A stretch of 64,000 nt of DNA from Aromatoleum bremense (lineage in GTDB: Bacteria > Pseudomonadota > Gammaproteobacteria > Burkholderiales > Rhodocyclaceae). The DNA lies in NCBI RefSeq assembly GCF_017894365.1, contig NZ_CP059467.1, positions 3,348,001 through 3,412,000 on the forward strand. The letters are read 5' to 3'. The notes below the pieces were generated by a model. That model ran no database searches. It had not been told where the DNA came from and saw only the letters and a program-made list of their open reading frames with translations. A program made the translations under genes and the position numbers. Of this stretch, positions 31,832 to 64,000 are shown piece by piece. Every line of letters begins with the position of its first letter. Position 1 is the stretch's first letter.

Positions 31832-32271
31832 TTCTTCCCCTCCTTCGGTTTGACGCCGAAGAACGCAGGCCCCGACCAGTTAACGCCGGTGATGTGCCGC
31901 GCCACCGCCGACAGACTCTTGAACACCTTGCCGTTCAGATCGTAGAGTCCCATCGGCGTGACCGTGACACGATATTCGTTGGATTCGTACTCGCGCAGAA
32001 GCACGGTACCCGGCATCAGATGCACTTCCGCGCGCCGCTTGCCGAACACCGACTGCGATTCACCGAGGCGCACTAGCCGCCGCCGGATATCGGGATCGAC
32101 GCCGCCGTGGGCGGCCTCCTGAATCTTGTAGGCGACACGGGACGTAACGTAATCGCGGTTCCAGGTGCCAGGACGTCGCGGAAAATGGACGTCCCACAGC
32201 GCCCACAAGTCCTTCATCGGCATCGTGGGCAGCGCCGCCAATTGGGCGGCAATGGTAGGAGGTTTTGTCAT
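31828..32271 (-). CDS. DUF2924 family protein (copy 1)
   Basis: From ATG at 32271 the product is 147 aa (MTKPPTIAAQLAALPTM...). It contains the family hallmarks LWALWDVHFPRRPGTWNRDYV and GKVFKSLSAVARHITGVNWSG. DUF2924 proteins are found next to serine recombinases in phages and integrative elements, and the same pairing occurs again at the right edge. The biochemical role is unknown; a small basic DNA-binding protein is plausible. The upstream extension of the frame is not needed. Confidence 0.8.
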   Translation of the reverse strand: MTKPPTIAAQLAALPTMPMKDLWALWDVHFPRRPGTWNRDYVTSRVAYKIQEAAHGGVDPDIRRRLVRLGESQSVFGKRRAEVHLMPGTVLLREYESNEYRVTVTPMGLYDLNGKVFKSLSAVARHITGVNWSGPAFFGVKPKEGKK

Positions 32272-32360
32272 CGGGAATCTCCGGTCGGTGAGGAAGTTGC
32301 ATGAACGCTTCTTCCTGGGCAGAAGCCAAGTCATAAAGCGCTCAATGCCGGGGCTGATGT

Positions 32361-42965: not shown

Positions 42966-43548
42966 TTACGTTTTCAGTTCTCGTGTCTACGAATCGTGCG
43001 AATTCCGCGAAAATCCTTGTGCCATATGGCTCCGCGCCAATGCGAAGCCGTGCGAATCGTGCGACAGGCCGGGCAAGGGTTCGCAGCTTTCGCATTCGAT
43101 GTGCAAGCCGCCCTCCCTGTCGCCAAGCCAACTTTCGCAACTTTCGCAGGATTCGCATGGGTCATTTTACGTAGGTGTCTTGAGCAGGTCACCTGCTGAT
43201 GCATTGACCATCACGACGATCACCTCCGTCATGCGTGCATCGTCGGTGATGACGGTGGTGATCACTCTTGTTGCTATGCTCGCCAGGAGGAGGTATGCCC
43301 AGGCGAAAGGGGTCCTTCCTGGCGATAAACCCATGCGGGGGGCGCCAGCGCAGCATTGCGCTACCGTCAGAGTGCAAACCAAGGTTTGCAGGGTTTGCGG
43401 TTTGCGCCCGCCCAAGGGGTGTGCGTTGAATCCCCCCCCCTTTGAAGCGAAAACGGCTATCCATTTCCAAGCCAGTGCTGACGCGGCTTTCAGCCGATTT
43501 CAGGGCCGAAAATCGGCAAAACGGCTACCGAGAAAATTGGTCGTAGAA
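42966..43548. other. Gene-poor region with iteron-like repeats and a long inverted repeat
   Basis: No gene is supported over 583 bases. At 43079-43165 TTCGCA recurs five times (for example ACTTTCGCAACTTTCGCAGG). At 43380-43405 a TTTGC motif recurs three times. A 15-bp inverted repeat with one mismatch (arms 43218-43232 and 43249-43263) encloses 16 bases. The right half is richer in A than its surroundings. This resembles an origin, transfer origin or control region of an integrative element, but which one cannot be decided. Confidence 0.4.
43311..43350. repeat. 40-bp repeat, copy B (inverted)
   Basis: Inverted counterpart of the repeat at 35273-35312, sharing 19 consecutive bases and the GGGTCCTTCC end. 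It lies in the gene-poor region. The two copies are 8 kb apart and enclose the IS66, IS21 and DUF3987 stretch. Confidence 0.75.
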
Positions 43549-43576
43549 AAGGGTGTCCGTTCAATAGACACCCTTT
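43549..43576 (-). terminator. Terminator of the DUF3489 gene
   Basis: A 9-bp perfect inverted repeat (AAGGGTGTC/GACACCCTT) with a 9-base loop. On the minus strand it is followed by TTTTC. It starts 13 bases after the DUF3489 stop codon. Confidence 0.75.
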
Positions 43577-43588
43577 GGTGGTTTGCTG

Positions 43589-44113
43589 TCAGGCGATGCG
43601 ATACACCCGTTCGCCGGTGGTGCACTTCTCCGACACGATTTTCAGGCCGAGCTTTTTCTTGAGCGCTCCGGCGAACGTGCCGCGTACAGTGTGTGCTTGC
43701 CAGCCGGTGGTTTCCATGACCTGCCGAATCGTCGTTCCATCGGGACGTTGCAGCATTTGTACAACTGCGGCCTGCTTGCTGTTCTTGCGGGTGCGCGGTT
43801 TGGTGTCGGTGCGATCTTGCGCCCAGTTGGCCTCGGCGGCCGTCACGGCGGCCTCAATCTCGGCATCCGGGGTAACAGGCGCAGGCAAGTTGCGTTTGCG
43901 CCCAACGACAGCGTAGGCCGCGTCGGTCAGGTGGTACGCGACGTGGTCGGTGTGTTGAAACTTGGTGATTAGGTCACGGGCGAGCAGACCATCGATGACG
44001 GCGGTTTTAGCGCCGCCGCGCAGGTTGGTAGGCAGCGGTTCAATGTTGCCATCCAGGCGGGCGGCAGCGGATTGGATAACGGTGGTTTGGGTGGCTGTCA
44101 GTTTGACGTTCAT
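43589..44113 (-). CDS. DUF3489 domain protein
   Basis: From ATG at 44113 (MNVKLTATQTTVIQSAAARL) with GGAG 8 bases upstream, the product is 174 aa. The C-terminal domain matches DUF3489: SKQAAVVQMLQRPDGTTIRQVMETTGWQAHTVRGTFAGALKKKLGL, a winged-helix-like DNA-binding fold. The family is common in phages and integrative elements. The longer frame overlaps the next gene and is rejected. A terminator follows. Confidence 0.8.
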   Translation of the reverse strand: MNVKLTATQTTVIQSAAARLDGNIEPLPTNLRGGAKTAVIDGLLARDLITKFQHTDHVAYHLTDAAYAVVGRKRNLPAPVTPDAEIEAAVTAAEANWAQDRTDTKPRTRKNSKQAAVVQMLQRPDGTTIRQVMETTGWQAHTVRGTFAGALKKKLGLKIVSEKCTTGERVYRIA

Positions 44114-44141
44114 GATCATCTCCGATGGTTGGTGGGCGGCG

Positions 44142-44378
44142 TCACTCACCATCGCCGTCGAAGATCGCCAGCAACTCGTCCAGTCCGGACTCCACCCGCC
44201 CGAGATCGCCGACGTGGCCCCAGTTGATGGCATCGGGGTCGCGACCGAAGTGGTCGTCGGCGAGTTGCTGCAGCCGTTCCAACTTGGCGTGGATGGCGGC
44301 AGTGCGGGCGAGGTAGGCGTCGGGGGCGGTTTGCTTGGTGTTTATCGTTGGCTCCGTGATGTGATTGACGCCCCCCAT
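44142..44378 (-). CDS. Small hypothetical protein (78 aa)
   Basis: A 78-aa helical, acidic protein (HAKLERLQQLADDHFGRDPDAINWGHVGDLGRVESGLDELLAIFDGDGE). It lies 28 bases before the DUF3489 gene in the same direction. No ribosome-binding site is clear at the ATG. It is the outermost gene of the minus-strand element block; the defence operon starts divergently 108 bases away. Function unknown. Confidence 0.55.
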   Translation of the reverse strand: MGGVNHITEPTINTKQTAPDAYLARTAAIHAKLERLQQLADDHFGRDPDAINWGHVGDLGRVESGLDELLAIFDGDGE

Positions 44379-44486
44379 GAACGCGCTGTTCGATCAGAAA
44401 GCCAAGCTCGCTCAACAATAGCTGGCTGCAGTTGTGCCACATTGATAAAATGAACCACTTATGCCATGCCGATCAGGAAATCCGAA

Positions 44487-44807
44487 ATGAAGCGCTGCGT
44501 CGTTGGTATTCGCCGCCCCGGTGACCCGGAGCCGCCGTCGGGCAAGAGCATGCCAACCGTCTGGTTCCCATCGATGGCCACGATGGCGGCGGTGCTGTCC
44601 GAGGACAACCAGACTTTGCTGCGCCTTATCCGCGACAAGCGACCCAAATCGCTGACTGAGCTCGCTGAGCTCACTGGGCGACAGGTGCCAAACCTGTCAC
44701 GCACGCTGCGGATGATGGAGGGTTACGGCTTGGTGGAATTAAAAAAAACCGTGCGCGAAATCGAACCCATCGTGCTGGCGACCAGTTTCAAGATTCTGAT
44801 CGGTTGA
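44487..44807 (+). CDS. Winged-helix DNA-binding protein, probable regulator of the DISARM-like operon
   Basis: From ATG at 44487 (AGGA 8 bases upstream) the product is 106 aa; ATG 44466 is an alternative. The C-terminal 60 residues form a MarR/ArsR-like winged helix: QTLLRLIRDKRPKSLTELAE, LTGRQVPNLSRTLRMMEGYG, then LVELKK. It resembles the HVO_A0114 type of putative DNA-binding proteins. It is the first gene of the plus-strand operon, and its stop lies 12 bases before the DrmA start. Autoregulation of the operon is a reasonable inference but is not shown. Confidence 0.75.
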   Translation: MKRCVVGIRRPGDPEPPSGKSMPTVWFPSMATMAAVLSEDNQTLLRLIRDKRPKSLTELAELTGRQVPNLSRTLRMMEGYGLVELKKTVREIEPIVLATSFKILIG

Positions 44808-44818
44808 GGCAGTTTGTA

Positions 44819-47800
44819 ATGACGACCCAAAGTGTCTCGCAGGAAAACATCTTCGTCGAGCCCCGAAAGCGCCTGATTGATTGGGTGCGCAAGCAACTGA
44901 TCGGGCCACCCGATCCGGTGGAAGATGGTCCGGATATTGTTGGCGTGTTGCCTACAGAACGTTTCCCCGGTGGGGCACTGTATCCCATTTCTCCCGCCGG
45001 CGAAGGCATCGATCCCGGTACAGACGATGGTGGCGAGGATGATTCCCTACCCAACGGAACAGGTGAAACAAAGGAAGAGCCAGCGGTTGTGCGGCGATAC
45101 ATACCTCCATCATCTCTTGGCTTTTCGTTTTTCATCAAGGGAGAAAATGTTCGCTTTCAAGTTTTGTGTAGTGCTGTCCAGTACATAAGTACCGTGCGAG
45201 CTCCGGATGGGCGGTTTAAGAATGAATGGACACGCAAAATATTGGGTTCAAGTGTTCATGAAAACGAAGAGTTTGAGAACGTTGCGTGCCCACTGAAAAA
45301 TTTACGCCAGCGCTTTGAAAAGCTTGACGGCAGCGCGCGAGTGGACGTCGAGTGGCGTCGCTTCGCCGACGGCTGGATTGCCACGATTTCCCTTTGCAAT
45401 TCCAATGAAATTGGAGACGAAATAAAGAACGGGAAAGAGTTTGTCGAGGAACGTGCTGAAAAGACGTTATTCGAAGCGTCTCTTCGCTGCGTAATCGACG
45501 CTGGTGAAGTTGGCGCCTATCCTCGCGTGGATCGAAGTCTGCTCGACGAGGAAGAGCAAGAGATCGAACTGCAATACTCCCGGCGGCATGTCTATGCCAT
45601 CGGTCACGGCTGTGCTGCAGAATGGAAAGTCGAAAGCGGCAAAGTGATCGAGATTTACTCGGATACCATGCCTGCGGTAGAAGTGCCGCAGATGACTGCT
45701 GACACGGGCGCGCGCGGCGATTCGGTTTTATCGCTTGCAAGGCTGTCTGCTATAGGCGACATGAATGCAGGCATTCAGCCTGAACTCACTGCTTTCGTGG
45801 ATGGATACGCCAATTGGGTTTCCGAACAAAAGTGCAGCATCTCTGAACAATCAGCGGACGATCACGCTGCGGCAAATCGCATAGTGGATCGCATGCTCGT
45901 CGCAGTATTGCGCATGCGCACTGGGCTGGATCTGCTGAGCAAGGATGCGCGGGTTCGACTGGCCTTCTCGCTGGCAAATCGTGCCATGCTGGATCAGATG
46001 CGTCAGAACGACAGGCTGCAAGGCAAGCCCCGCGGTGACGATGCCTACCGCTGGCGTCCATTCCAGTTGGCGTTTTTGCTGACCACGCTGGAATCCGCCG
46101 CAAATCCAGAAAGTGACTTCCGCGACACGCTTGACCTTATCTGGTTTCCGACCGGCGGCGGCAAGACGGAGGCATATCTCGGCTTAATCGCATTCCAGAT
46201 CGCACTGAGGCGCCTGCGTTACCCTGATACAGGGGGCGGGACGACGGTCTTGATGCGTTACACCTTGCGCCTCTTGACGCGTGATCAATTTATCCGCGCC
46301 ACGCGCCTGATTTGCGCGCTGGAATTGATTCGTCGCGAGCGCGATGACCTCGGCACGGAACCGATCTCTGTCGGCATGTGGGTTGGCGATGCCACCAGTC
46401 CGAATACCTTCCAGAAGGCCACGGAACTTGTGGCAAGGGCCTGCACTACTGGCGACAAACCCGCACTGGTGCTCGACCACTGCCCTTGGTGTGGCGATGA
46501 TTTTAAGGCGAAACACAATTACGACAGCACGGAACAGCGTTTTCATTTCCTATGCAAAAATTCAGATTGCAGCTTCGGCGCTTCTGTCACGGGCAGGCTG
46601 CCGTGCAACGTCGTCGACGAGGCCTTGTATGCCGAACCGCCGACCATGTTGGTCGCCACCGTGGACAAGTTCGCCCGGCTGGCCTGGGAAGAGCGTGCCA
46701 ATGCCTTCTTCGGCAGTACGCGGCATTTGCCGCCAGAGCTCATCATCCAGGATGAACTGCACCTGATTGCGGGAGCACTCGGTTCAGTCGCGGGGCTTTA
46801 TGAAGCGGCCGTAGATACCGTCGTGCAATCGCGTGGCTTGTATCCGAAATACATTGCATCAACCGCCACCATCCGCATGGCGAGCCAACAGGTCAAACGT
46901 CTATATGGCCGTGACGTGGCCGTATTCCCGCCACCAGGCATGAGCTGCGATGACTCCTTCTTTGCCAGAACCGTGCCTTTAACGCAGCGCCCAGGCCGAA
47001 TTTACGTCGGCTATCTGGCGCCCATGCTGAACCGCCAAGCGTGTATGGCGCCGCTCGCCGCCGCCCTCCTTCTAGCCCCGAACGCCTTGTTTGGAAGCGA
47101 ACAGGATCAGCGTGAGCTACTGGACGCGTGGTGGACGCAAATGGTGTATCACGGCAGCTTGAAGGGCGTGGGCAACAGTCATACAGCGTTTGCCAGTGCC
47201 GTTCGGGACTTCGTGCGGTTATTGAGTCCGCATTCGGAAAAAGACCAACAGGCACAACCCGACATCGAGCAACCCAATTGCTCGCAAACTGGCGAGCAGA
47301 AAGGAAGTAGCAAACGGACGACACCCAGCATTGCCCAGCTAACCAGTCTGCAAACTGCCGAGCAAAATGCAGACATTTTCGCCAGGCTGAACAGGGAATG
47401 CGATGAAGATGGCTGCCTGGATGCGGTGCTGGCCACCAATATGATTTCAGTCGGGTTGGATGTGGGGCGACTCGGCTTGATGATCATCAACGGACAGCCT
47501 CTGACCACTGCGGAATACATCCAGGCCAGCAGCCGCGTTGGGCGCAGCAAAGTTCCCGGAGTGGTATTCGCCAATTATTATCGCGACCAGGCACGCAGCC
47601 TGTCGCACTACGAGAGCTTCCGTCCGTATCACGACGCGTTCTATCGCTTCGTTGAACCGACCAGTGTCACGCCCTTTACCTATCAAGCGCGGATGCGCGC
47701 CCTGCATGCGGCATTGGTCATCGTCATTCGCCATTCTGGGAGAGGGATGCTGTGTAACGACAATGCGGGAGATTTCAATCCGAGTGATGCATTGATTGCC

Positions 47801-48073
47801 AAGGTCATTGATCGCCTGAAGCGACGTTGCAGGCAATCCGTTTCAGAGAACCCTGGTGAAGTGGATGCGCATATCGACGCCCTCGTCGCGGATTGGCAGA
47901 ACGAAGTCGAGCGTTGTCGCGATTCTCGCAGGAAATTGGAATATCAGGTTCCGGATAGAGATACCGGGCGTGATCGTTTGCTCTACAACCACGATGACCG
48001 GATTCGTGGTCTGTGGCCGACATTGCAATCGTTGCGCAATGTCGAAAACAGTGCCCTGCTCAAGGCTCTCTAA
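44819..48073 (+). CDS. drmA: DISARM-like helicase DrmA
   Basis: From ATG at 44819 the product is 1084 aa. It is a superfamily 2 helicase: Walker A in WFPTGGGKTEAYLGL (about residue 443), a DExH box in the characteristic form IIQDELHLIAGALGSVAGLYE (about 642), motif III ASTATI, and motif VI YIQASSRVGRSK (about 900). A Cys4 zinc site lies between (CPWCGDD, then CKNSDC). The QDELHLI box, the zinc insertion and the following DUF1998 gene are hallmarks of DrmA, the DISARM helicase. The N-terminal 350 residues are not assigned. Its stop is 3 bases before drmB. Base composition is lower in GC than the core genes, pointing to transfer. Confidence 0.88.
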   Translation: MTTQSVSQENIFVEPRKRLIDWVRKQLIGPPDPVEDGPDIVGVLPTERFPGGALYPISPAGEGIDPGTDDGGEDDSLPNGTGETKEEPAVVRRYIPPSSLGFSFFIKGENVRFQVLCSAVQYISTVRAPDGRFKNEWTRKILGSSVHENEEFENVACPLKNLRQRFEKLDGSARVDVEWRRFADGWIATISLCNSNEIGDEIKNGKEFVEERAEKTLFEASLRCVIDAGEVGAYPRVDRSLLDEEEQEIELQYSRRHVYAIGHGCAAEWKVESGKVIEIYSDTMPAVEVPQMTADTGARGDSVLSLARLSAIGDMNAGIQPELTAFVDGYANWVSEQKCSISEQSADDHAAANRIVDRMLVAVLRMRTGLDLLSKDARVRLAFSLANRAMLDQMRQNDRLQGKPRGDDAYRWRPFQLAFLLTTLESAANPESDFRDTLDLIWFPTGGGKTEAYLGLIAFQIALRRLRYPDTGGGTTVLMRYTLRLLTRDQFIRATRLICALELIRRERDDLGTEPISVGMWVGDATSPNTFQKATELVARACTTGDKPALVLDHCPWCGDDFKAKHNYDSTEQRFHFLCKNSDCSFGASVTGRLPCNVVDEALYAEPPTMLVATVDKFARLAWEERANAFFGSTRHLPPELIIQDELHLIAGALGSVAGLYEAAVDTVVQSRGLYPKYIASTATIRMASQQVKRLYGRDVAVFPPPGMSCDDSFFARTVPLTQRPGRIYVGYLAPMLNRQACMAPLAAALLLAPNALFGSEQDQRELLDAWWTQMVYHGSLKGVGNSHTAFASAVRDFVRLLSPHSEKDQQAQPDIEQPNCSQTGEQKGSSKRTTPSIAQLTSLQTAEQNADIFARLNRECDEDGCLDAVLATNMISVGLDVGRLGLMIINGQPLTTAEYIQASSRVGRSKVPGVVFANYYRDQARSLSHYESFRPYHDAFYRFVEPTSVTPFTYQARMRALHAALVIVIRHSGRGMLCNDNAGDFNPSDALIAKVIDRLKRRCRQSVSENPGEVDAHIDALVADWQNEVERCRDSRRKLEYQVPDRDTGRDRLLYNHDDRIRGLWPTLQSLRNVENSALLKAL

Positions 48074-48076
48074 TCC

Positions 48077-49921
48077 ATGTCCAAAGAATTTATTCAAGTA
48101 CGATTGTCGCATGTGTTGGGCCAGAGCGGCGTCGGCGCGATTGTGCGCGGAGCGAATGGCCTCGTAGTGGTTCAGGACACCCGCGAGTGGACCGATCGCC
48201 ACGGCGAACCTGCCGGCAAACTGATTCCATACGTTGAGCGCGTCCGTGCTGCGTTGGATTTGCAGGCGCTGCGCGAGCCGCCTGTTGCTAAGGAATTGGC
48301 CAATGGTCAAATCGATGGCACCTGTGTGCCGGCAACGCGGTTCCCGTCCTGGATGCGTTGCCCTAGTTGCGGTGTGCTCTATCTGCGCCCGTGGAAAGAG
48401 GCCCCTGCGGACAACGCACTTCATTGCCATTGGGAGAAGTGCAAGAGCAAGCCGAGGCTGGAGCAGGTCACCTGGGTCTTGGCCCATCCAGCGGGGTACC
48501 TGGCCGATGTGCGATGGAAATTTCTTGCCCATCGGCATGCAAGCACTCCAGCCCAGAAAAACTGTCAGCTACGCGACAAGCTTAAATTGATTGATCGTGG
48601 CTACGATCAGCGTGTCTTGCGCTGTGATCGTGAAATGGGCGGGTGTGGCGCTGAGACCCTGTTTCGCGGCGATGAACGACTACCATTCGGCCAGCAACGC
48701 ATGCAGCCATGGACAAGGGAAGATATCGCGCCGCCAGATGTCGCTCCCCCCGGTGACTCCGATGAGGGCAGGCAAAACCTAGCCCAGGTGCTTGCCATTA
48801 ATGACACGCGCGCCTATGCTCCCAAAGTGGTGTCCGTGCTGATCATTCCACCGGAATCCCGCGTTCGCAAGGGCACAGTTGTCGATCTCCTTTATCGGAA
48901 TTCGGCCGAGCGTAAAAAACTTGATAGCGCCAGAACACCATCAGATAAAAAGCGTGCCATCAAAAAGCTGGCAACCGAGTACCGATGCCAACCACAGGAT
49001 ATTGAAGCAGCATTATCCGATCTTGATCGCGGCTATCCCTTGTATGGCGAAAACCTCACGCCAGGACAATTACGGGAAAGCGAGTTCGAGGCCTTTCTGG
49101 AAGTCCTGCCAGATCAGCGCGATGACGAAGACCTGGTCACGCGAAACAAAAGTAACGAATGGCACGCATTGGAAGCGGCCAATGACCTGAGCGCAGAATC
49201 AAAAGCCATTGTCCGCTGCGTTCAGCATCTTGTTCGCGTGGATCGACTCAAGGCAGTAAAGGTGTTCCGCGGATTTAGTCGTCTTGGCGGCGAAGTCACG
49301 GTCCTGCCGGACATCGTTGGGCAGCCCGACTGGCTACCAGCCATTGAATTGTATGGAGAGGGTATCTTCATTGCACTGGATGAAGGCAGGCTGGGATGTT
49401 GGGAGCAACAACCGGCTGTGCTTGCGCGACTGGAGAATCTGCAACGTCGATTTGCCCAATCCGGACGCGACGAACCCAACCCGTTGACTCCCCGCTTCAT
49501 GTTGCTGCATACGCTGTCTCACCTGCTGATGCGGCAGATCGAATCCGAAGGTGGCTATCCGGCGGCATCACTTATCGAGCGCATTTATTGCACCCACGCG
49601 CCGGAGCGCATGGCCGGCATTCTCATCCATGTCGCCGTCCCTGACATCGCTGGCTCGTTGGGTGGCTTGGCGGAACTGGCCGAACCAAAGCGGTTTCTGG
49701 GCATCCTCTCCCGCGCTCTGGAACATGCCGGTTGGTGCTCGCTCGATCCGGTCTGCAGTGAACACGATGGGCAAGGGCCAGGTCTACTGAACCGGGCCGC
49801 CTGCCATGCGTGCACGTTGGTGCCAGAACCCGCTTGCGAATACGGTAATACGTTGCTGGATCGCTGTTTCATCAAAGGCGATGACAGTCACGGACTGCCT
49901 GCATTCTTCGGAGCGCCGTGA
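48077..49921 (+). CDS. drmB: DISARM-like DUF1998 protein DrmB
   Basis: A 614-aa protein. The N-terminus has VRLSHVLGQSGVGAIVRGAN, typical of DrmB, then a zinc site CPSCGVLYLRPW with later Cys pairs (HCHWEKC). The DUF1998 domain covers about residues 470-600, with FMLLHTLSHLLMRQIESEGG, YPAASLIERIY and the Cys cluster NRAACHACTLVPEPACEYGN. In DISARM, DrmA and DrmB form the DNA-sensing and translocating complex. Drm proteins usually lie beside drmC and a methyltransferase; neither is visible here. It overlaps the next gene's possible GTG start by four bases. Confidence 0.88.
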   Translation: MSKEFIQVRLSHVLGQSGVGAIVRGANGLVVVQDTREWTDRHGEPAGKLIPYVERVRAALDLQALREPPVAKELANGQIDGTCVPATRFPSWMRCPSCGVLYLRPWKEAPADNALHCHWEKCKSKPRLEQVTWVLAHPAGYLADVRWKFLAHRHASTPAQKNCQLRDKLKLIDRGYDQRVLRCDREMGGCGAETLFRGDERLPFGQQRMQPWTREDIAPPDVAPPGDSDEGRQNLAQVLAINDTRAYAPKVVSVLIIPPESRVRKGTVVDLLYRNSAERKKLDSARTPSDKKRAIKKLATEYRCQPQDIEAALSDLDRGYPLYGENLTPGQLRESEFEAFLEVLPDQRDDEDLVTRNKSNEWHALEAANDLSAESKAIVRCVQHLVRVDRLKAVKVFRGFSRLGGEVTVLPDIVGQPDWLPAIELYGEGIFIALDEGRLGCWEQQPAVLARLENLQRRFAQSGRDEPNPLTPRFMLLHTLSHLLMRQIESEGGYPAASLIERIYCTHAPERMAGILIHVAVPDIAGSLGGLAELAEPKRFLGILSRALEHAGWCSLDPVCSEHDGQGPGLLNRAACHACTLVPEPACEYGNTLLDRCFIKGDDSHGLPAFFGAP

Positions 49922-49923
49922 CC

Positions 49924-51120
49924 ATGGCTGTAGACCGCACTCGCCGCTTTATCCTGCCCGGCATTCAGGACCTCAATAAAGATCAGGACGAGGCGCTGGC
50001 TCTCCCCTTGGAGGGGCAGCATCTCATCATTGGTGGGCCAGGAACCGGCAAGTCGGTGGTGGCATTGCTTCGGGCACGAAGACTTGCTGTAGACCAAAAA
50101 AAATATCGAATCCTTGTCTACAATCATCTGCTGAATGGTTCGAACAGACACCTGTTCGGTTCCACCCAACCATTGGTCTCAAATACGTGGGAAAAGTGGT
50201 TCAGGGAAATGTACAAGTACATCTTCAATCAAACAGTCCCTACAATTCCCCAAGAAAATCCGGGTGCCTATAAACCGATTGACTGGAAAGCTGTCGAGAA
50301 AACATCTGACATCCAAGACGGGGCTGAATTACCTCTGAACGGAAGCCTCTTCCTGCTTATTGATGAAGGGCAAGACATGCCCCCCCAATTCTATGAAACG
50401 CTTTGGGATTGGGGGCTTAGGAACTTCTATGTCGTGGCGGATCAGAATCAGCAAATGCACCCTGATAAATGCAGTTCACGCCAAGATATCGAGGATGCTC
50501 TGGGAATTTGGGTAAAAGACACTCTGGAACTTAAGTCCAACTATCGAAATACCCGTCCGATCGCGCAGTTGGCGCAGCACTTTTATCCAGACGATCCTGC
50601 CAGTCCAAGGCCAGACCTGCCCGATCCAAAACCCACTGCCACATCGCCGGAACTCTGGACGTACGGCGCCATTGACCAGCCATCATTGAATGAAATCGTT
50701 GAGCGAATCCTTCAGTTGAGTGATCGTTTCCAAAGCAAACTAATCGGAATAATCACCCCTGACAACGGAGTTCGTGAAAAGTTTTATGATGCCCTCGCCA
50801 AGGCCAATCCAAGGCTGGACAATGGTAAGCCACCTATACAAACCTTTGCTTCGGGACAGCAAGAACCGCTGGATTTTGGGCAAGGTGGAATCATGATTAT
50901 CAACGCGCAATCCTGCAAAGGGCTTGAGTTCGATATCGCCATTCTTGCCAATATCGACCAGCACAAACCAAAACAGGATATCCATACGCTGAAATCGCGC
51001 TTCTATGTGATGGTGGCGCGCGGCCGGGAGCAGGTCATCCTGCTGCGTACCGGAAATACTTGCCCAGTCGTGGAAAGTCTGCTTCCCACTGACTCGACCA
51101 TCCTCGCCAGGAAAGAGTAA
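49924..51120 (+). CDS. SF1 (UvrD-like) helicase/ATPase of the defence operon
   Basis: From ATG at 49924 the product is 398 aa; a GTG at 49918 is possible. SF1 motifs in order: Walker A LIIGGPGTGKSVVAL, Walker B LLIDEGQDMPPQF, motif IV-like LKSNYRNTRPIAQL, motif V INAQSCKGLEFDIAILANID, and motif VI RFYVMVARGREQVILLR. It is much shorter than UvrD (about 720 aa) and lacks the 1B/2B inserts. It may therefore be a DUF2075-like ATPase rather than a processive helicase. It is coupled to drmB upstream and shares one base with the next gene. A role in DNA processing during defence is inference. Confidence 0.8.
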   Translation: MAVDRTRRFILPGIQDLNKDQDEALALPLEGQHLIIGGPGTGKSVVALLRARRLAVDQKKYRILVYNHLLNGSNRHLFGSTQPLVSNTWEKWFREMYKYIFNQTVPTIPQENPGAYKPIDWKAVEKTSDIQDGAELPLNGSLFLLIDEGQDMPPQFYETLWDWGLRNFYVVADQNQQMHPDKCSSRQDIEDALGIWVKDTLELKSNYRNTRPIAQLAQHFYPDDPASPRPDLPDPKPTATSPELWTYGAIDQPSLNEIVERILQLSDRFQSKLIGIITPDNGVREKFYDALAKANPRLDNGKPPIQTFASGQQEPLDFGQGGIMIINAQSCKGLEFDIAILANIDQHKPKQDIHTLKSRFYVMVARGREQVILLRTGNTCPVVESLLPTDSTILARKE

Positions 51121-51716
51121 TGAACACTACAAACTCTAAGGAAATTAGCACACGGAAAACCGCGCAGACATGGTATCTGGTTAGCAACCATCTGAACTTG
51201 CTGTATATGCTGGCTGCCGGTCTGGTGATGGAGCCTTCCGGATTCCGTGGAAAGCACTATGTCGATTCGTTGGGCGCAATTCCCGGTTGGATCCCCTTGT
51301 TCCGCAATGAGATTCCGGCCGAGGCGCTTGAACAAGCCGTCAGCGAGCGCAAGCACCTGCGTCCCTGCATTGTATCGTTTGATCTGTCAGGCGTTTCCGG
51401 TCCTGTGCAGGTGTTGTCCCGAGAAGGAAAAATTCGAAATACCGACTTCCCTAAAGTACGGTTTGGGAAAGAGGATATCGCCATTCTCATACGAGCGCCT
51501 TTGCCGCTGACTTTGTTTTCCCGCATCTGTTTTCTTACGGATGAAGACAGGCAGGTATTCGAGACTGCAGCCAAGGATGTTTCCAATGTGGACTTGAGGC
51601 CATATCGTATCGAAATCGAAAACTCGATGCTTCGCAACACAAATGACGCTGCCTGGCCACCAGGGCTTCCGCACTCGGAAAGCATTTTCCCTGATGGCAT
51701 AGCACTTTCAAAATAG
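51120..51716 (+). pseudogene. Unknown defence-operon protein, 5' part (split by ISAs1)
   Basis: Native codons run from 51120 to 51660 (180 codons, ending ...NDAAWP). The next 18 codons to the stop at 51716 belong to the insertion sequence. The 3' part begins at 52971. Without the IS (1301 bp) and one 10-bp duplication the two parts make a single 551-aa protein. The N-terminal region reads TWYLVSNHLNLLYMLAAGL, then VMEPSGFRGKHYVDSLG. No catalytic motif is recognised. Its start overlaps the SF1 gene stop by one base, so it was a true operon member. A truncated 198-aa product can still be made. Confidence 0.85.
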
Positions 51717-52961
51717 TCGTTAACCTTCAACATCTTATGCATTCATCTTGTGAGCCCTGCAAAAATCACGTCTACTCTCGTCTTTTGGACGAAGAGCGTG
51801 AGTGCGACGCAAAGGGTATCCCTGATGAGCTGTCTGACCGAAATCGATGATCCGCGCAAACCGAGCAACGGCACCCTGCATGACTTCCGGGAGATCCTGG
51901 TGATCATGATCGCGGCCGTGCTCTCGGACTCCGACACCGTCGAGGACATCGCCTTCTGGGCGCGCAAGAAGGAAGCGTGGCTGCGCCGCTTCCTCGTGCT
52001 CAAGAACGGCATCCCGTCCGAGGAAACCTTCCTGCGCATCCTGCGGGCGCTCGACCCGAAGCAGTTCGAAGCGGCCTTCCGGCGCTGGGTCGGCGGCGTC
52101 GTGGGTGCGCTCAACGACGATGCGGCGCTGAGCGGCACGATCGCCATCGACGGCAAGACCGTGCGCGGGTCGGGCAGTGGCGGCGAAAGTGCGATCCATA
52201 TGGTCAGCGCCTTCGCCACCGATCTGGGGCTCGTGCTCGGTCAGGAGAAGGTGGCGGCCAAGAGCAACGAACTCACCGCGATCCCCGAACTGCTCGATGC
52301 GCTGTCGATCAAGGGGCTGCTCGTCAGCATTGACGCCATGGGTTGCCAGAAAAGCATTGCCAAACAGATCGTTGCGAAAAAGGGCGACTACCTGCTGATG
52401 GTCAAGGGCAACCAGCCCAAGCTGCTTGAGGCGATCGAGACCGCCTTCATCGATCAACACGCGGTCGAGTCGGTCGACCATGAGTATCTGGTCGAGCGCT
52501 CTCATGGCCGCACCGTCGGGCAGATCGCCTCGGTGCTGCCGGCCAAGGGCATCGTCGATCCGGCCGAGTGGCCCAAATGCACGACGATCGGGCATATCGA
52601 CTCCATCCGAGTCATCGGTGACAAGGAGTCCGGGCTCGAGCGTCGCTACTACATCAGCTCTCGCGCGCTCAGCGCCGAGGAGCTGGCTGCAGCGGTGCGT
52701 GCGCACTGGGGCGTGGAAAACCGGCTTCACTGGGTCCTCGACGTCAGCTTTGGCGAGGACGCCAGCACGTTGTGCAAGGACAATGCGCCGCAGAATCTCT
52801 CGCTGCTCAGGAAGATCGCGCTCAACATCATCCGCGCCGACAAGACCGACACGAGCAAGGCCAGCCTTCGCCTCAAGCGCAAAGGGGCAGCGTGGGATGA
52901 CGATGTGAGGGAAAACATGCTGGGGCTTCGATCAATATGCTAGGCGAGTGCGGAGGCCCTG
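51661..52961. mobile_element. ISAs1-family insertion sequence, complete (1301 bp)
   Basis: Terminal inverted repeats CAGGGC(T/C)TCCGCACTCG at 51661-51677 and 52945-52961, with one mismatch. The 10-bp target duplication GCCTGGCCAC is at 51651-51660 and 52962-52971. Length and duplication size fit the ISAs1 family. The single transposase gene is intact, so the insertion may be recent. Confidence 0.95.
51825..52943 (+). CDS. ISAs1-family transposase
   Basis: Predicted 372 aa from ATG at 51825 (MSCLTEIDDPRKPSNGTLHDF). It has the DDE core of the family: TIAIDGKTVRGS, LLVSIDAMGCQKSIAKQI, and the acidic C-terminal motif AHWGVENRLHWVLDVSFGED. The N-terminal DDE_Tnp_ISAs1 associated domain is present (DPRKPSNGTLHDFREILVIM). 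Its stop codon lies 18 bases before the right end of the IS. No frameshift. Confidence 0.93.
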   Translation: MSCLTEIDDPRKPSNGTLHDFREILVIMIAAVLSDSDTVEDIAFWARKKEAWLRRFLVLKNGIPSEETFLRILRALDPKQFEAAFRRWVGGVVGALNDDAALSGTIAIDGKTVRGSGSGGESAIHMVSAFATDLGLVLGQEKVAAKSNELTAIPELLDALSIKGLLVSIDAMGCQKSIAKQIVAKKGDYLLMVKGNQPKLLEAIETAFIDQHAVESVDHEYLVERSHGRTVGQIASVLPAKGIVDPAEWPKCTTIGHIDSIRVIGDKESGLERRYYISSRALSAEELAAAVRAHWGVENRLHWVLDVSFGEDASTLCKDNAPQNLSLLRKIALNIIRADKTDTSKASLRLKRKGAAWDDDVRENMLGLRSIC

Positions 52962-54086
52962 GCCTGGCCACCGATACAAACAGGTAAGCCCCGGCGTCGG
53001 AATACCCGTCAAAAGGAATCCAACAGCCAGCAAGGTAATTTGCTTGAGGGGGCGGCGGATACACCGCAAGTTTCGGAGCCCCCAATTAATCGCCACATCT
53101 CTGCGCAGGCTTTGGGTGGATTACTTGCCATGCTATATCACGGCGCTAACCGTAGCGAGTTGGGGGTGGAGGTTTTTCAACTAATAACAGAATCAGCGCC
53201 CAATGCAGATTGCACCTCCATTCAAGATCCGATATTGGCCGAGTTGCCGAATTGGCTGAACGGAGGTGGAGTTTCGGAGCACTCAAACACTCCAGCCAGA
53301 CTGTATTGGGGGGCAATGGACGCTCTTGTTGCGGCACAGGAAGAAAAACATTCATCACAACCTGTGGACGCGGTACTGGAATACCTCGATGCTCAACTCT
53401 CGCAGTTGACGGATGAGAAATACAGGTCCCGTCTGGAGCGATTGATCGCAGACATGCGTGGCTTCCTCGGCCTTGGTGGTGGAACAATTACTGAACTTTT
53501 CGAGCGCAACAAAGGCTCCCTGTCACGGCCCTTGCTATTGTTCTGCTTGCGCGAACATTGCGTAAATCTGCTTGAATTCTCGCACCCTCTTTTGAGCGAC
53601 GCCGAGTATTTGCTTGCAGGCATTCTGTTCGGTGTGAGAGATGGTTGGCTGAGGCTGCCTTGCTTGATACGCAACCAGGCTCTGTCTGCCTATGTCATGT
53701 ACCACATGTCAAATGTCGCACATCTAAAACAAGGGGACGTTTTATCACTCCCGGAAACGCCAAGCCCGCAACCTCTGCGCTCTCTCTTTCCCTACGAGAC
53801 AGATGAATGGCACAAGAACCAAACGAACGCTGCCCTTGAAATCGCCAAAGGCAGCAAGTGGCGGGATTGCATCGAAATGATCGTTGCCTCGGCTGACGGT
53901 TCTCCTCTGGATGAGCCGAAGCAGGAAAACGGAAAATTCATTTTTCCCGGTGAAACGACTTCAACGATAGAAATCAGGCATCAAGCCTTTTTAAATCGTA
54001 TTGGAGAATGGCCACCAATTGACGCGGAGTTGGAGTCCAAGATAAGGGTTAGTTTGAATTCCAAGATAATAGAGGCGCTGAACTAA
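52962..54086 (+). pseudogene. Unknown defence-operon protein, 3' part (split by ISAs1)
   Basis: The frame continues from the target duplication at 52971 without stops to 54086 (371 codons) and is in phase with the 5' part at 51120-51660. It reads PIQTGKPRRRNTRQK..., then INRHISAQALGGLLAMLYHG. The body is mostly helical, with LLLFCLREHCVNLLEFSHPLL and a C-terminal FIFPGETTSTIEIRHQAFL. No known domain is recognised. A TTG at 53040 could start a 348-aa product, but there is no ribosome-binding site. The stop is 2 bases before the NERD helicase ATG, so polarity on the next gene is possible. Confidence 0.85.
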
Positions 54087-54088
54087 GT

Positions 54089-55657
54089 ATGAGGATGATT
54101 CCCCGCGAGCCGCTGCACACCGAAAGTAATGCGGAAAAGCAGGTGTTTGACCAACTGCGAGCAGCATTTTCCGGGCCAGGCCAAACGGGCTGGTTTGCCA
54201 TGCACTCGCTCAATCTCCCCCGGCACGAATACAAACGATTCGGCGAGATCGATTTTATCGTATGCGGCCCCGACGGTCTATTTGTGCTGGAGGTCAAGGG
54301 CGGCGGTGTATCGTGCCGTGATGGCGTCTGGGAAACAAGAAACAAACATGGGGCCACGCGACTAAAGGAATCTCCCTTCAAACAGGCCGAAGGTGCTCTG
54401 CATGGCTTGAGAAAAAAACTCCCTCCTCAATTCGAACATGCATTTGTTTTAGGTTACGGCGTTGTGATGCCGGGTGTAGAAAACCTGCCTGAAAGCGCTG
54501 AGTGGGACCGCACAGTATTAGCGGACGCCAAAGACTTCAAACAGTTCGAGAAGTGGTTGAGTCGACTCATCAAACATTGGCATGCGAAAGATGCCCGTAA
54601 ACCAAGAGCAACTTCCGATCAACTGAAGCATCTGCAGCAACTTCTGCGCCCCGATTTCGAAGCCGTAGTTCCGTTGCACGTCACCGCCGGTGCGGTCGAA
54701 TCCCGGATCGCCCGACTGACGGAAGAGCAACTACGGCTGATCGATGCCGTTGAAGCCAACGATCGCGTTATCTGTTCAGGCGGTGCGGGAACAGGGAAAA
54801 CGATGCTCGGCCTTGAGTTGGCGAAACGCTGGACTGCTGCCGGAATGAACGTTGCCATGACCTGCCATTCGCCTTGGCTGAAGAGCTTTTTGGACCGCAA
54901 CCCTCTGGCTGGTCTAACGGTTTGCTTATCCGATTCCATCCATCTTGCAGCAAGAAGATATGGCATCGAGAAGTTTGACGCCGTGGTCGTCGATGAAGGG
55001 CAAGACATCTTGAACATGGAGAGCCTGTCGAAGGTGGATGCGTACCTGAAAGGCGGACTTGATAAGGGGCGCTGGTGTTTCTTTCACGACATAAATAATC
55101 AATCTGGATTATGTGGTGCATATGTGCCAGATGCCTATGAATACTTGAGCATTTTTGCGCCGACAAAAATACCGCTAAGAACGAATTGTCGAAATTCGCT
55201 GCCAATCTTAAATCGGATTCAAGATGCACTTCAGGCTGACATGGGTAATCCGGGTGTGGGAGATGGCCCATCTGTTCGTGAATCTTTTGCAAGCGATCAG
55301 CAAAAAGCAATTCAATTTGTTGAGAATGAACTAAAAACTCTCACAGAGGAAGATGGGTTTATGTATGGCGACATAGTCATTCTGTCGCATTTGCCATTCG
55401 AAGAGTCTTTGGCTTCATTCTTGTCTCCCCGTTGGCACAAATCGATTTCCATTCTCGATGGTGCATCACCGCTCAGTTCAGACCGGCAGTCCATCGGATT
55501 TGCCCAGATCCCTGACTTCAAAGGGCTGGAGAGTGAGGTCATCGTCCTTATCGATCTACCCGCACCTGGCTCCCGCGCAGATCTGCGCTCGCTCCACTAT
55601 GTGGGGATGAGCAGAGCGCGTGCGATGTTAAGCATGATTACTGTTGCTAACAGATAA
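54089..55657 (+). CDS. NERD-domain SF1 helicase
   Basis: A 522-aa protein. Residues of about 12-110 are a NERD nuclease-related domain with the PD-(D/E)xK-like core HEYKRFGEIDFIVCGPDG...LFVLEVKGG. An SF1 helicase follows: Walker A CSGGAGTGKTMLGLELA (about residue 231), Walker B VVVDEGQDILNME, RTNCRNSLPILNRI, motif V IPDFKGLESEVIVLID, and motif VI LHYVGMSRARAMLSM. NERD-helicase fusions occur in several predicted and proven anti-phage systems. The putative catalytic E, D, E and K are all present. It directly follows the split gene and precedes ssb by 46 bases. Confidence 0.85.
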   Translation: MRMIPREPLHTESNAEKQVFDQLRAAFSGPGQTGWFAMHSLNLPRHEYKRFGEIDFIVCGPDGLFVLEVKGGGVSCRDGVWETRNKHGATRLKESPFKQAEGALHGLRKKLPPQFEHAFVLGYGVVMPGVENLPESAEWDRTVLADAKDFKQFEKWLSRLIKHWHAKDARKPRATSDQLKHLQQLLRPDFEAVVPLHVTAGAVESRIARLTEEQLRLIDAVEANDRVICSGGAGTGKTMLGLELAKRWTAAGMNVAMTCHSPWLKSFLDRNPLAGLTVCLSDSIHLAARRYGIEKFDAVVVDEGQDILNMESLSKVDAYLKGGLDKGRWCFFHDINNQSGLCGAYVPDAYEYLSIFAPTKIPLRTNCRNSLPILNRIQDALQADMGNPGVGDGPSVRESFASDQQKAIQFVENELKTLTEEDGFMYGDIVILSHLPFEESLASFLSPRWHKSISILDGASPLSSDRQSIGFAQIPDFKGLESEVIVLIDLPAPGSRADLRSLHYVGMSRARAMLSMITVANR

Positions 55658-55703
55658 CGAATCTTATCTCGAACGTATTTATTTATATTGATGGAGAAAT
55701 GCA

Positions 55704-56156
55704 TTGGCTTCCGTTAACAAAGTCATCCTGATCGGCAATCTCGGCGCAGATCCCGAGCTCCGGAGTTTTCCGAACGGCGACAGGGTATGCAACCTCCGCC
55801 TGGCCACGACGGATTCGTGGAAGGACAAATCTTCGGGGGAGAAACGCGAAACGACCGAGTGGCACCGCGTAGTGCTGTACCGAAAGCTCGCCGAGATCGC
55901 AGGTCAATATCTCCGCAAGGGATCACAGGTATACGTCGAAGGCCGTATCCGTACGCGCAAGTGGAAAGACAAAGACGGTCAGGACCGCTACAGCACAGAA
56001 ATCGAGGCCGACGAAATGACTATGCTGGGCGGTAAGGGTCAAGGGACTGCTCCCTCCACCAGTTCCGGCACGAGCGCAGAAGCTTGGCCCGATGAGTTCG
56101 GCGGAACAAAAGGAAGAACGAAACCTCCAGAATGGATCGACGACCTACCGTTCTGA
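55704..56156 (+). CDS. ssb: Single-stranded DNA-binding protein
   Basis: Predicted 150 aa, starting at TTG 55704 with GGAG 8 bases upstream. The OB fold is complete: [59 protein letters not shown]. The acidic tail ends WIDDLPF, matching the SSB C-terminal tip that recruits partner proteins. It is probably an accessory copy carried by the island, since its context is the defence operon and not uvrA as in many core ssb loci. It could bind strands made by the two SF1 proteins; that is inference. Confidence 0.93.
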
Positions 56157-56710
56157 AGGCAATCACTTGCGATGAAAAAGGAAACTGAAGTGACGAATAT
56201 TCCTCGGAGACAAAACGACCAGCAGGCCATGCTACCGGGTGTGATGGGATACAGAATCGCGAAACGAGTTCAGCGAACGGCAGGCACCCGCAGCGTTACT
56301 CATTGGTTCCAATAGCAAGTCGTTCGGTAGTAAACTGCACGCCACCAACACATGAGGCCAGCGTTCGCGCTGGCCTCAGTCATTTCTGCCGCAAACGCCA
56401 GTGTTGGCGCGGGTTTCAGCCCGTTGCGGTGGCACGCCCGGGCAAACCGGACGTCATTTTTCGCCCGCTGGCGCGGCGAATCCTCTCTTTTCTCCGTTTC
56501 AGCTGTGGCTGGTCGCGGCAGTCACCCGTTAAAAATCAATGGGTTGCAGGGTGGCGTTTGCGTCAACGATGCGAGCCGGTCGGATGCGAAGGGCGAACTT
56601 GCGCTGATCGGACGCTGATCGGCCAGTCGCCACCCGATCCAGATAGCGGCCATCCGGATGAAGCTGTATGCTCTCTGCCTATGTGCCAGATTGGGCGCAT
56701 CAGATTACTA
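56157..56710. other. Intergenic region between ssb and IS630, with hairpin
   Basis: No gene supported in 554 bases. At 56353-56378 an 11-bp perfect inverted repeat (TGAGGCCAGCG/CGCTGGCCTCA) with a 4-base loop may act as a terminator for the operon, but there is no T-run. No trace of an integrase gene, expected on this side of the attI-like site, was found by eye. Confidence 0.45.
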
Positions 56711-57810
56711 CTCATGAGGCGGAAATATAGGCGACACTGGGATGCTTGAAGAAAGAGCGCACCAAGGCGGGATGCTTGCCGATATCGGCCAACTGGTCAT
56801 GCACACGTTCTTGCAGGGTCTCGCCTTTTTGCAGGGGCCGGCGGGCGTTGCCGGTACGCTTGGCGTGGCTCCACACCAGTTCATCCGGATTCAGGTCGGG
56901 GGCATAGCCCGGCAGGAAATGCAGCGTCAGCTTGCCTTGCGTGCTGGCGACATACGTCTTGACCCCCGCCTTCTTGTGGGCGGGCAGTCCGTCGAGCACC
57001 AGGTGCAATGGCTTCCTGCGGCGGTGCATCAGCTTCCTGAGCAAGTCCACAAACAGTTCGCCGTTCAATGCCCCAGGGTAGATGGCGAACCAGAAGCCGC
57101 CCTTCATGCTGACGGCCGAGGCCGCACTGATACTTTGCCGCTGCCCGGGCACCGCGACCACCGGTGTGCGACCCTTGGCGCCCCAAGTCCTGCCCTGCAC
57201 GGCGTCGGCGCGAAAGCCGGATTCGTCCCAAAAGAGAATCTCGGCTTTCTCTTCCCTGGCGCGCCGCATCAGCGCCGGATAGGTCTCGTGCTGCCAGCGC
57301 TCAATCGCCGCCGGATCACGCTGGTAAGCGCGCTGCAGCGGCTTTTGCACCGTCAGGCCCAGTCGCGCCAGCAGCGCACCAATCGAGGACAGGCTCAGGG
57401 TGATGCCAAATTTGCTCTGCACCAAGTCCCGTACCAAGCCCCGTGTCCACAGCCCGGTGTCGAAGCCATGTTCCATCGGCGAGTGCCCGTCGATCCAGCG
57501 CAATACCTGCCGCGCCTGCTGCGCGGTGAGTTTCGGGGGCCGTCCAGTGATCGGATGCGACGCCAGCGCCCGCAGCCCATGGCCGCGGCCCGCCGCCGCT
57601 TTCAGCCAGCGATAGATCACGCTGCGATGAAATCCGTAGCTGGCGATCACCTGGCTCGGCGCTTCGCCTTCCCGCACCCGCTCAATGGCCATCCTACGAA
57701 TCGTTTCCAGCGTCCCGTGATCCAGTTTTCGTCCGTCTCGTTTCATCCTCATCGGATCGCCAGGACGGCGAAAGTTCCCCACCATGTCGCCTTACTTCCC
57801 GCCTTCTGAG
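56711..57810. mobile_element. IS630-family insertion sequence, complete (1100 bp)
   Basis: Terminal inverted repeats of 26 bp with 20 matches (CTCATGAGGCGG and CTCAGAAGGCGG at the tips) are flanked on both sides by TA (56709-56710 and 57811-57812). TA is the target duplication of IS630/Tc1-type elements. The element lies about 100 bases left of the attI-like site, where an integron integrase gene would be expected. Confidence 0.9.
56712..57746 (-). CDS. IS630-family transposase
   Basis: From ATG at 57746 the product is 344 aa. The N-terminal paired-type helix-turn-helix (TLETIRRMAIERVREGEAPS, VIASYGFHRSVIYRWLKAA) is followed by HTH_32/winged-helix region LRDLVQSKFGITLSLSSIGAL-like sequence, and the DDE core: EILFWDESGFRADAV, HLVLDGLPAHKKAGV and GYAPDLNPDELVW. 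The stop codon lies within the left inverted repeat. It is intact. Confidence 0.92.
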   Translation of the reverse strand: MKRDGRKLDHGTLETIRRMAIERVREGEAPSQVIASYGFHRSVIYRWLKAAAGRGHGLRALASHPITGRPPKLTAQQARQVLRWIDGHSPMEHGFDTGLWTRGLVRDLVQSKFGITLSLSSIGALLARLGLTVQKPLQRAYQRDPAAIERWQHETYPALMRRAREEKAEILFWDESGFRADAVQGRTWGAKGRTPVVAVPGQRQSISAASAVSMKGGFWFAIYPGALNGELFVDLLRKLMHRRRKPLHLVLDGLPAHKKAGVKTYVASTQGKLTLHFLPGYAPDLNPDELVWSHAKRTGNARRPLQKGETLQERVHDQLADIGKHPALVRSFFKHPSVAYISAS

Positions 57811-61835: not shown

Positions 61836-62264
61836 TCACACGTCATACCCCTCGAACAACGCCTCCTGCGCCGCCCAGTCCTGCGGCACCGCATGATTCT
61901 TCAGCCACAGCAGACTCAGCGTCTTCGGCTGCCGGCCGTCGAGAATCGCCCGCACCATCCGCGGCGAGAGCAGCGTGAGCCGCAGCAGCTCGTTGACGGT
62001 GGTGTGGTGCAGCCCCTCGCGCCGCGCGATGTCGGTGCCGCTCTCGACCACCCCTTCGTCGATCAGCCGCTGCCAGTGAAACGCCCGCGACAGCGCGGTG
62101 AGGATCGGCGCGTCGTGCTGGGCCTCGGCGGCGGGCGAGTGCGCGGCCGGAATCACATGCTTGCGCCCGCCGCGCCGCTTGATGCGGATCGGCAGTACCG
62201 TGCGGATGCGAACCCCCTCGGCACTTTCCTGCAGCGCCTGGCCCGTCTGCTGGATCTTGGTCAT
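61836..62264 (-). CDS. Recombinase-associated HTH protein (copy 2)
   Basis: A 142-aa paralogue of the protein at 29994-30461. It has a helix-turn-helix (GTDIARREGLHHTTVNELLR, LTLLSPRMVRAIL) and the GRQPKTLSLLWLK motif. Start overlaps the recombinase stop by four bases, as in copy 1. Codon use is more GC-rich than in copy 1, so the modules have diverged and were acquired separately. Function unknown. Confidence 0.7.
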   Translation of the reverse strand: MTKIQQTGQALQESAEGVRIRTVLPIRIKRRGGRKHVIPAAHSPAAEAQHDAPILTALSRAFHWQRLIDEGVVESGTDIARREGLHHTTVNELLRLTLLSPRMVRAILDGRQPKTLSLLWLKNHAVPQDWAAQEALFEGYDV

Positions 62265-63610: not shown

Positions 63611-64000
63611 CGCCCACCTCCGGTCTTCTTGAGCCCAAAGAACGCCGGCCCGGACCAATGCGTGCCGGTGATCGCACGGGCCACCGCCGAGAGGCTGCGG
63701 TAGGATTTGCCGTCGAGCGCGTACTGGCCATCCGCGGTGACGACCACCCGGTACTCGCGCTGCTCCCACTCGCGCACCAGCACCGCACCGGGCATCAAGC
63801 GCACCTGCGGGCCGCGTCCGGTCTTGATCTTCGAGTGCCGCTCGCCGCAGTCGGCCAGATGCGCCTTGACCTCGGCGGGCAGCCCGCCGTAGGCGAGCTC
63901 CTGCAGGCGGTACGCCAGGCGCGCTTCGAGGTAGCCGCGATTGACCCGATTGGGCCGGCGGGGGAAGTGCTGATCCCACAAGGTCCACAGCGCGGGCATC
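63607..64000 (-). CDS. DUF2924 family protein (copy 2), 5' end outside window
   Basis: At least 130 residues; the frame is open to the right edge. It matches copy 1 (31828-32271) at LWTLWDQHFPRRPNRVNRGYL and GKSYRSLSAVARAITGTHWSG. Copy 1 has 18 more residues at the N-terminus, so the true start probably lies beyond position 64000. Function unknown; linked to the serine recombinase. Confidence 0.8.
   Translation of the reverse strand, partial: MPALWTLWDQHFPRRPNRVNRGYLEARLAYRLQELAYGGLPAEVKAHLADCGERHSKIKTGRGPQVRLMPGAVLVREWEQREYRVVVTADGQYALDGKSYRSLSAVARAITGTHWSGPAFFGLKKTGGGR

Follow-up and report, generated by a model that had tools for sequence, protein, structure and literature searches.

A conserved DrmAB gene cassette without an adjoining methylase, linked to an SF1 ATPase and a protein of predicted ADP-ribosyltransferase and ADP-ribosylhydrolase folds

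DISARM systems of class 1 and class 2 combine DrmA, DrmB and DrmC with an adenine or cytosine methyltransferase, and are usually described as sparing the host through DNA methylation. For the Serratia system, excerpts of PMC9142583 describe a DrmAB with affinity for 5' overhangs that tells DNA apart by its structure, an ATPase activity that falls with 5-methylcytosine, and two residues, R1294 and V1296, that matter for DNA contact and are proposed methylation sensors. The cassette described here resembles DISARM in its DrmA and DrmB homologues, which keep the DISARM order and retain the DNA-contact and proposed methyl-sensing residues, but it has no adjoining DrmC or methyltransferase, its DrmA falls in a separate clade, and it adds an SF1 ATPase, a protein that we call the ART/ARH-fold protein after its predicted folds, and usually a NERD-helicase. 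Since the DISARM-like clade of the YprA family holds many uncharacterised classes (Figure 1 legend of PMC12458937), that preprint may already list the cassette unnamed; the excerpted main text contains no description of an operon with DrmAB, SF1, ART/ARH and NERD genes, and our literature search, covering titles, abstracts and full text, returned no earlier description of the operon or of a DrmAB-linked ADP-ribosyltransferase/hydrolase-fold protein.

More distant likenesses are found in other systems. TALON likewise has both a YprA-family helicase and a NERD-type nuclease, but its ARMADA-like fused helicase, TPR-CSD and TBP genes (PMC12458937, in excerpt) are unmatched among the window operon proteins in PADLOC, Pfam and NCBIfam. 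DarTG shares a DarT-like fold, and in the cassette protein ADP-ribosyltransferase and hydrolase folds are predicted to be joined in one chain, although its hydrolase part would be ARH/DraG-like rather than a macrodomain and the catalytic residues are only partly kept. Hachiman (HamAB), an example of helicase-nuclease systems that can work without methylation (PMC12278908, in excerpt), is an analogy of mechanism only, in which a helicase sensor and a PD-(D/E)xK-type nuclease act on damaged DNA independently of methylation, whereas its genes differ from those of the cassette.

By the window we mean the whole 64,000-nucleotide stretch of Aromatoleum bremense DNA that was analysed, and positions below are counted from its first letter. 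The gene series is as follows.

44466-44807, plus strand: winged-HTH regulator (Pfam HVO_A0114, 4.2e-19), overlapping drmA
44804-48073, plus strand: DrmA-like SF2 (YprA-family) helicase, 1089 aa, start codon uncertain (PADLOC DrmA, 4.3e-204)
48077-49921, plus strand: DrmB-like protein with MZB/DUF1998 domain, 614 aa (NCBIfam DrmB_fam, 321 bits, cut-off 240)
49918-51120, plus strand: SF1 (UvrD/HelD/GajB-like) ATPase, 400 aa from a GTG start (weak Pfam and NCBIfam helicase matches)
51120-51716, plus strand: 5' fragment of the ART/ARH-fold gene, 198 aa, predicted DarT-like ADP-ribosyltransferase-fold domain
51660-52962, plus strand: insertion element, 1303 bp, with a DDE transposase ORF at 51750-52943
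53040-54086, plus strand: 3' fragment of the ART/ARH-fold gene, 348 aa, predicted ADP-ribosylhydrolase (ARH/DraG)-fold domain and C-terminal part
54089-55657, plus strand: NERD nuclease fused to an SF1 helicase, 522 aa (Pfam NERD, 7.1e-13; PADLOC RTasNERD-Hel, 6.6e-42)
55704-56156, plus strand: SSB, single-stranded DNA-binding protein (Pfam SSB, 2.2e-41)

A sequence-only reading of this DNA had proposed a DISARM-like operon running from an HTH regulator to ssb without methyltransferase or DrmC. Its plus-strand series of HTH, DrmA, DrmB, SF1, NERD-SF1 and ssb stands, and the coordinates bear out the tight spacing; the intact 551-aa frame that it placed before the NERD gene does not stand, being two ORFs around a transposase. 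The QDELH box of DrmA was located at residue 649, and the four-cysteine site (560/563/584/589) is Cys in 60/60 aligned DrmA. When the operon proteins were checked with PADLOC, as that reading had suggested, DrmA gave the match listed above and methyltransferase and DrmC were unmatched; across PADLOC, Pfam and NCBIfam, 0/8 window proteins matched either. Against NCBIfam DrmAS the window DrmA scores 822.7 bits, below the cut-off of 950, and the solved structure nearest to DrmA and DrmB is Serratia DrmAB (PDB 7s9v; 1.9e-128 for DrmA against chain 7s9v_A, the Serratia DrmA, and 8.1e-49 for DrmB against 7s9v_B). The DrmA alignment begins at chain residue 355, and the Serratia trigger loop comprises residues 176-232. 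The SF1 ATPase matched no nuclease domain in Pfam or NCBIfam, and an RNA component was set aside, as 43500-57000 gave no match in Rfam.

The transposase ORF separates the two ORFs of the ART/ARH-fold gene. The insertion element has imperfect 18-bp inverted ends and is flanked by 8-bp direct repeats (51652-51659 and 52963-52970), and the reading frame of the 5' fragment runs into it at 51660. From its family traits we take the element to be ISAs1-like. A second copy in the same genome, at 154186, is identical across the 1211 bases queried, so the insertion looks recent. The break falls after ~180 codons, close to the stretch of the model (residues 173-221) that links the two predicted domains, and the window's own copy of the cassette is broken and probably inactive.

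Linkage was examined by scanning genome contigs with the SF1 alignment, which found 114 relatives, and keeping the best 80 as loci; locus profiles were then run over all six frames and the presence of each component was counted. In these best 80 of 114 loci, where SF1 is present in 80/80 by selection, the ART/ARH-fold protein was found in 79, DrmB in 77 and DrmA in 74, and all four were present in 73. For loci found with SF1 alone, this co-occurrence exceeds chance. Contig ends account for each core absence, L049 excepted; that locus is the same contig as G330:C155, and in genome G330 DrmB lies on another contig (L116) beside unrelated genes. At L057, DrmA is on the opposite strand, some kilobases off, and genes are fragmented in some loci, e.g., L047, L078 and L092. 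The NERD-helicase was detected in 55/80 loci, downstream in 53 and upstream of DrmA in 2; another 17 have no NERD-helicase despite room of at least 700 bases (only 866 in L077), and 8 run out of contig. Because NERD is missing from 17 of the 72 loci able to show it, we take the core to be four genes, and NERD cannot be the sole effector. The cross-genome co-occurrence that the sequence-only reading had asked to see was found for DrmA, DrmB, SF1 and the ART/ARH-fold protein, with NERD a frequent but not obligatory companion. Gap medians between neighbouring genes are 3, 2, 1 and 5 bp over 56, 69, 68 and 46 pairs, with pairs more than 400 bp apart omitted (L083, L070, L061, L080, L092) and start codons picked by rule. 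Over 38 loci, the correlations between the pairwise identities of one protein and those of another among the five lie at r 0.79-0.98, which points to co-inheritance, although these values carry no host-tree control.

Titles of the best 80 of the 114 loci name Pseudomonadota, Desulfobacterota-type bacteria, Acidobacteria, Verrucomicrobia, Planctomycetota, Gemmatimonadota and others; most of the 80 are contigs from MAGs, which leaves room for binning errors. In sampled genomes the cassette is rare and patchy: the 3' fragment matches 4/369 class genomes, its own included, and the profiles match the source genome only in the phylum sample (1/398) and in the order (1/100). SF1 matches 4 of 72,556 plasmid records, and the 3' fragment matches none. 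Viral contigs scanned with alignments A3 and A5 held no relatives and DrmA matched no phage records, and a phage or viral origin was set aside.

For comparison, DrmB_fam was searched in the 369 class genomes, where it matched 13, 9 of them above cut-off, and genes in these neighbourhoods were called by a simple script. Four of the 9 carry the cassette (G000, G047, G343 and, in scattered form, G330). Two carry the PLD nuclease DrmC (L110, 1.3e-106; L111, 8.9e-126) and served as positive controls, and two (L113, L114) carry DrmA, DrmB, NERD-helicase and Vsr, the last identified by PADLOC in L113 and by eye in L114. The remaining one, L112, holds a C5-methylase, NERD-helicase, DrmA, DrmB and SF1. 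In addition it encodes a distant relative of the ART/ARH-fold protein (34.6 bits), and one further protein is matched by a model for a type II nicking endonuclease. Among plasmids, that of Deinococcus gobiensis encodes NERD-helicase, DrmA, DrmB, SF1 and an ART/ARH-fold protein relative (38.1 bits); two from Photobacterium encode DrmA, DrmB and SF1 and, where the ART/ARH gene would stand, a protein without a match, with a dcm gene and a restriction gene 5-7 kb away; and that of Streptomyces fungicidicus encodes DrmA, DrmB and SF1 only. In a DrmA tree of 38 rows, a 100/100 branch groups 25/25 cassette rows together. Other SF1-bearing loci adjoin this clade (92/81) and the DrmC-bearing L110 and L111 fall elsewhere; the placement of the long-branch rows L119, L009, L117 and L112 is unsafe. 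Taken with the four-gene linkage, this single clade agrees with the earlier proposal of a distinct DrmAB-based system. The tree row nearest to the window DrmA is L039 (85% identity), and because near rows come from different phyla, horizontal transfer is suggested.

When 549 flanking ORFs were compared all against all, none of the clusters spanning at least 3 loci, judged by eye, resembled a methyltransferase. The flanks, taken to 3.5 kb, hold 256 genes coding for 180 aa or more; 238 of these were scanned with PADLOC, the 18 that exceed 800 aa being set aside. Among the matches listed (the 25 most frequent families out of 106 in one set and out of 243 in the other), type II methyltransferase models matched one of the 238 proteins and DrmC did not appear; any DrmC or methylase family outside those listed was matched by at most 2 proteins in the first set and at most 1 in the second. 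The absence of both genes described earlier therefore extends from the window proteins to the flanks, where, among the matches listed, neither recurs, which argues that they were not merely lost in this genome. A DISARM locus that had simply lost its methylase and drmC here, the circumstance that the sequence-only reading named as speaking against itself, was rejected because, among the matches listed, neither gene recurs beside the homologous cassettes. Other defence families near the cassette are AbiE, DpdF, CARF, RT, BrxD, PD-T4-4 and DEDDh. The HTH regulator and ssb, previously counted as parts of the operon, were also rejected as system components, since each recurs in only 1/80 related loci (phmmer E <= 1e-5): a relative of the window HTH lies directly upstream of DrmA in L039, and an SSB-like gene is labelled in L046, on the opposite strand. 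The regulator is probably local rather than a conserved component, and we judge SSB to be a neighbour.

Residue conservation was counted after leaving out rows with stops or less than 90% coverage. DrmA K454 is kept in 59/60 and D650/E651 in 60/60; the SF1 Walker residues K45 and D149/E150, and R210, are invariant (81/81), as are the NERD active-site residues E53, D55, E68, K70 and Q99 (52/52).

The two fragments of the ART/ARH-fold gene gave no match in Pfam, PADLOC or NCBIfam, and a 51-row profile of the protein found none by sequence in the PDB; Pfam 2CompART touches 3/51 homologues (best 1.3e-4), with L063 at 19.6 bits, below the cut-off of 27. An AlphaFold model of the intact L039 homologue (pLDDT 89.6, with residues 197-214 under 50) predicts a DarT-like ADP-ribosyltransferase fold followed by an ARH fold in one chain, an assignment made from this one homologue model and one re-alignment of Foldseek's list. 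The ARH match is structural only, the C-domain having no sequence likeness to ARH. In the DarT comparison set the rows L126/L133 duplicate each other and one row is a fragment; the ARH set includes two fragments.

Our best explanation, to which we give a probability of roughly 0.55, is that the cassette is a distinct DISARM-like anti-phage or anti-plasmid class with a core of DrmA, DrmB, SF1 and ART/ARH-fold protein, a NERD-helicase in most copies, and a structure-based, methylase-free way of working. Its linkage, clade, conserved residues and fold are computed; the defence role, a complex, the self/non-self rule and the roles of the subunits we infer. In the proposed working, DrmAB would load on exposed 5' single-stranded DNA, as Serratia DISARM does, so that self would be spared by DNA structure and not by methylation. 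The SF1 ATPase would work on the opened strand, and DrmAB and SF1, by analogy, probably open or track foreign DNA. The ART/ARH-fold protein, the fastest-evolving subunit and the likeliest sensor or gate, would sense a phage feature or a nucleotide (NAD+, ADP-ribose) and then license attack, and the NERD-helicase, where present, would degrade DNA. A conserved, apparently horizontally spread DrmAB cassette that has no methylase linked to it offers a natural way of testing the structure-based self-recognition put forward for Serratia, and brings DrmAB together with a protein of predicted ADP-ribosyltransferase/hydrolase fold. Intact operons in cultured bacteria, e.g., Rhodanobacter thiooxydans LCS2 (L037) and Desulfobacter latus (L079), put such tests within reach.

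A methylation-based DISARM that uses an unlinked methylase of the host would fit the sister locus L112, where a C5-methylase accompanies SF1 and a distant ART/ARH-fold protein relative. DrmA R1078 and V1080, which align with Serratia R1294 and V1296, are invariant (60/60), 5-methylcytosine lowers the ATPase of Serratia DrmAB (excerpts of PMC9142583), and the two Photobacterium plasmids carry dcm and a restriction gene nearby. We nevertheless consider this unlikely, since a type II methyltransferase model was matched by one flanking protein among the matches listed and the cassette occurs in several phyla without a common modifying gene adjoining. The 5-methylcytosine inhibition of Serratia DrmAB, with the proposed sensing residue kept here, would suit a methylation-based rule too. 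Also awkward for our best explanation are the C5-methylase adjoining the operon in the sister group at L112, the 17/72 informative loci that lack NERD, and the scattered genes of G330/L049, with DrmB elsewhere. A DNA-repair or replication-restart module like MrfAB, not serving in defence, could be imagined from three helicase-type ATPases and a nuclease, and repair is the role of YprA relatives that lie outside the defence branch (excerpts of PMC12458937); however, the rare and patchy occurrence given above, close DrmA relatives across phyla, plasmid copies and defence genes in the flanks make this very improbable.

Within the distinct-class explanation, a more specific form is offered tentatively: the methylase-and-PLD arm may have been replaced by an ADP-ribose-based switch, in which the DarT-fold/ARH-fold fusion would read or write NAD+-derived signals, or bind phage single-stranded DNA, and license DrmAB, SF1 and NERD to destroy DNA without an epigenetic self mark. 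One further reading seems to us rather doubtful: a one-chain, DarTG-like writer/eraser licensed by DrmAB, in which the ART part would actively ADP-ribosylate DNA or protein and the ARH part would be its built-in eraser. Both domains match ADP-ribose enzymes in their predicted folds, and the ARH part has an acidic-x-acidic pair (position 390 in 46/51, 392 in 49/51) at the ARH GGDxDT site, mapped by eye, but no conserved acid was seen between 221 and 327, nor the N-terminal ARH metal motif or other metal ligands, in the 51 rows. In the ART part the positions of DarT R51 and Y71 are presumed placements of our own: F61 stands for Y71 (F in 50/51), and the stretch expected to hold R51 is missing from the 51-row alignment. 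The H13 position is hydrophobic (L in 45/51), and the column aligned with E160 has no conserved acid in the 51 rows, the nearest being column 119 (D/E in 37/51). The equivalents of T15 and N19, which contact NAD+ in DarT (PMC9967889, in excerpt, the source of the DarT numbering), are kept as T22 (T in 48/51, S in 3/51) and N26 (51/51). With its catalytic residues kept only in part, the ART/ARH-fold protein could serve as a reader or a degenerate scaffold, or be an enzyme of an unusual type. Many of its homologues also carry an N-terminal [DE]LF motif, noted by eye.

Large serine recombinases at each edge of the low-GC stretch, DUF2924, which adjoins one of the two, and a tRNA-Ala gene indicate that the DISARM-like operon likely sits inside a composite mobile island. 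The window positions are:

29681-29756, tRNA-Ala
30458-32334, large serine recombinase (Resolvase + Recombinase), one edge of the low-GC stretch
61836-63988, large serine recombinase (Resolvase + Recombinase), other edge

Across the related loci, the gene immediately 5' of DrmA was not constant, being an AlbA/Schlafen-like protein (assigned by eye) in L020, L022 and L032, and a DEDDh exonuclease in L041, L042 and L045. In L078 (8988-10541), the gene for the predicted ART-ARH protein was found as two frames broken at the domain boundary, and since the NERD gene was likewise split there, a sequencing error is likely.

The NERD-helicase was also found in further DrmAB families (L112, L113, L114, L115, L117, L118), and seems to be a common partner of DISARM-like helicases. 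Vsr and an apparent C5-methylase were detected in several of these loci.

The window's genome carries a second, distant YprA-type pair, DrmA-like plus DrmB-like (G000:C1:90418-96129; locus L009, 8419-14129), preceded by a STAND-like ATPase and followed by a PLD protein (PLDc_2, 1.1e-10). A true DarT-family match (6.8e-38) lies elsewhere in this genome, at G000:C1:4183653-4184138 (L129).
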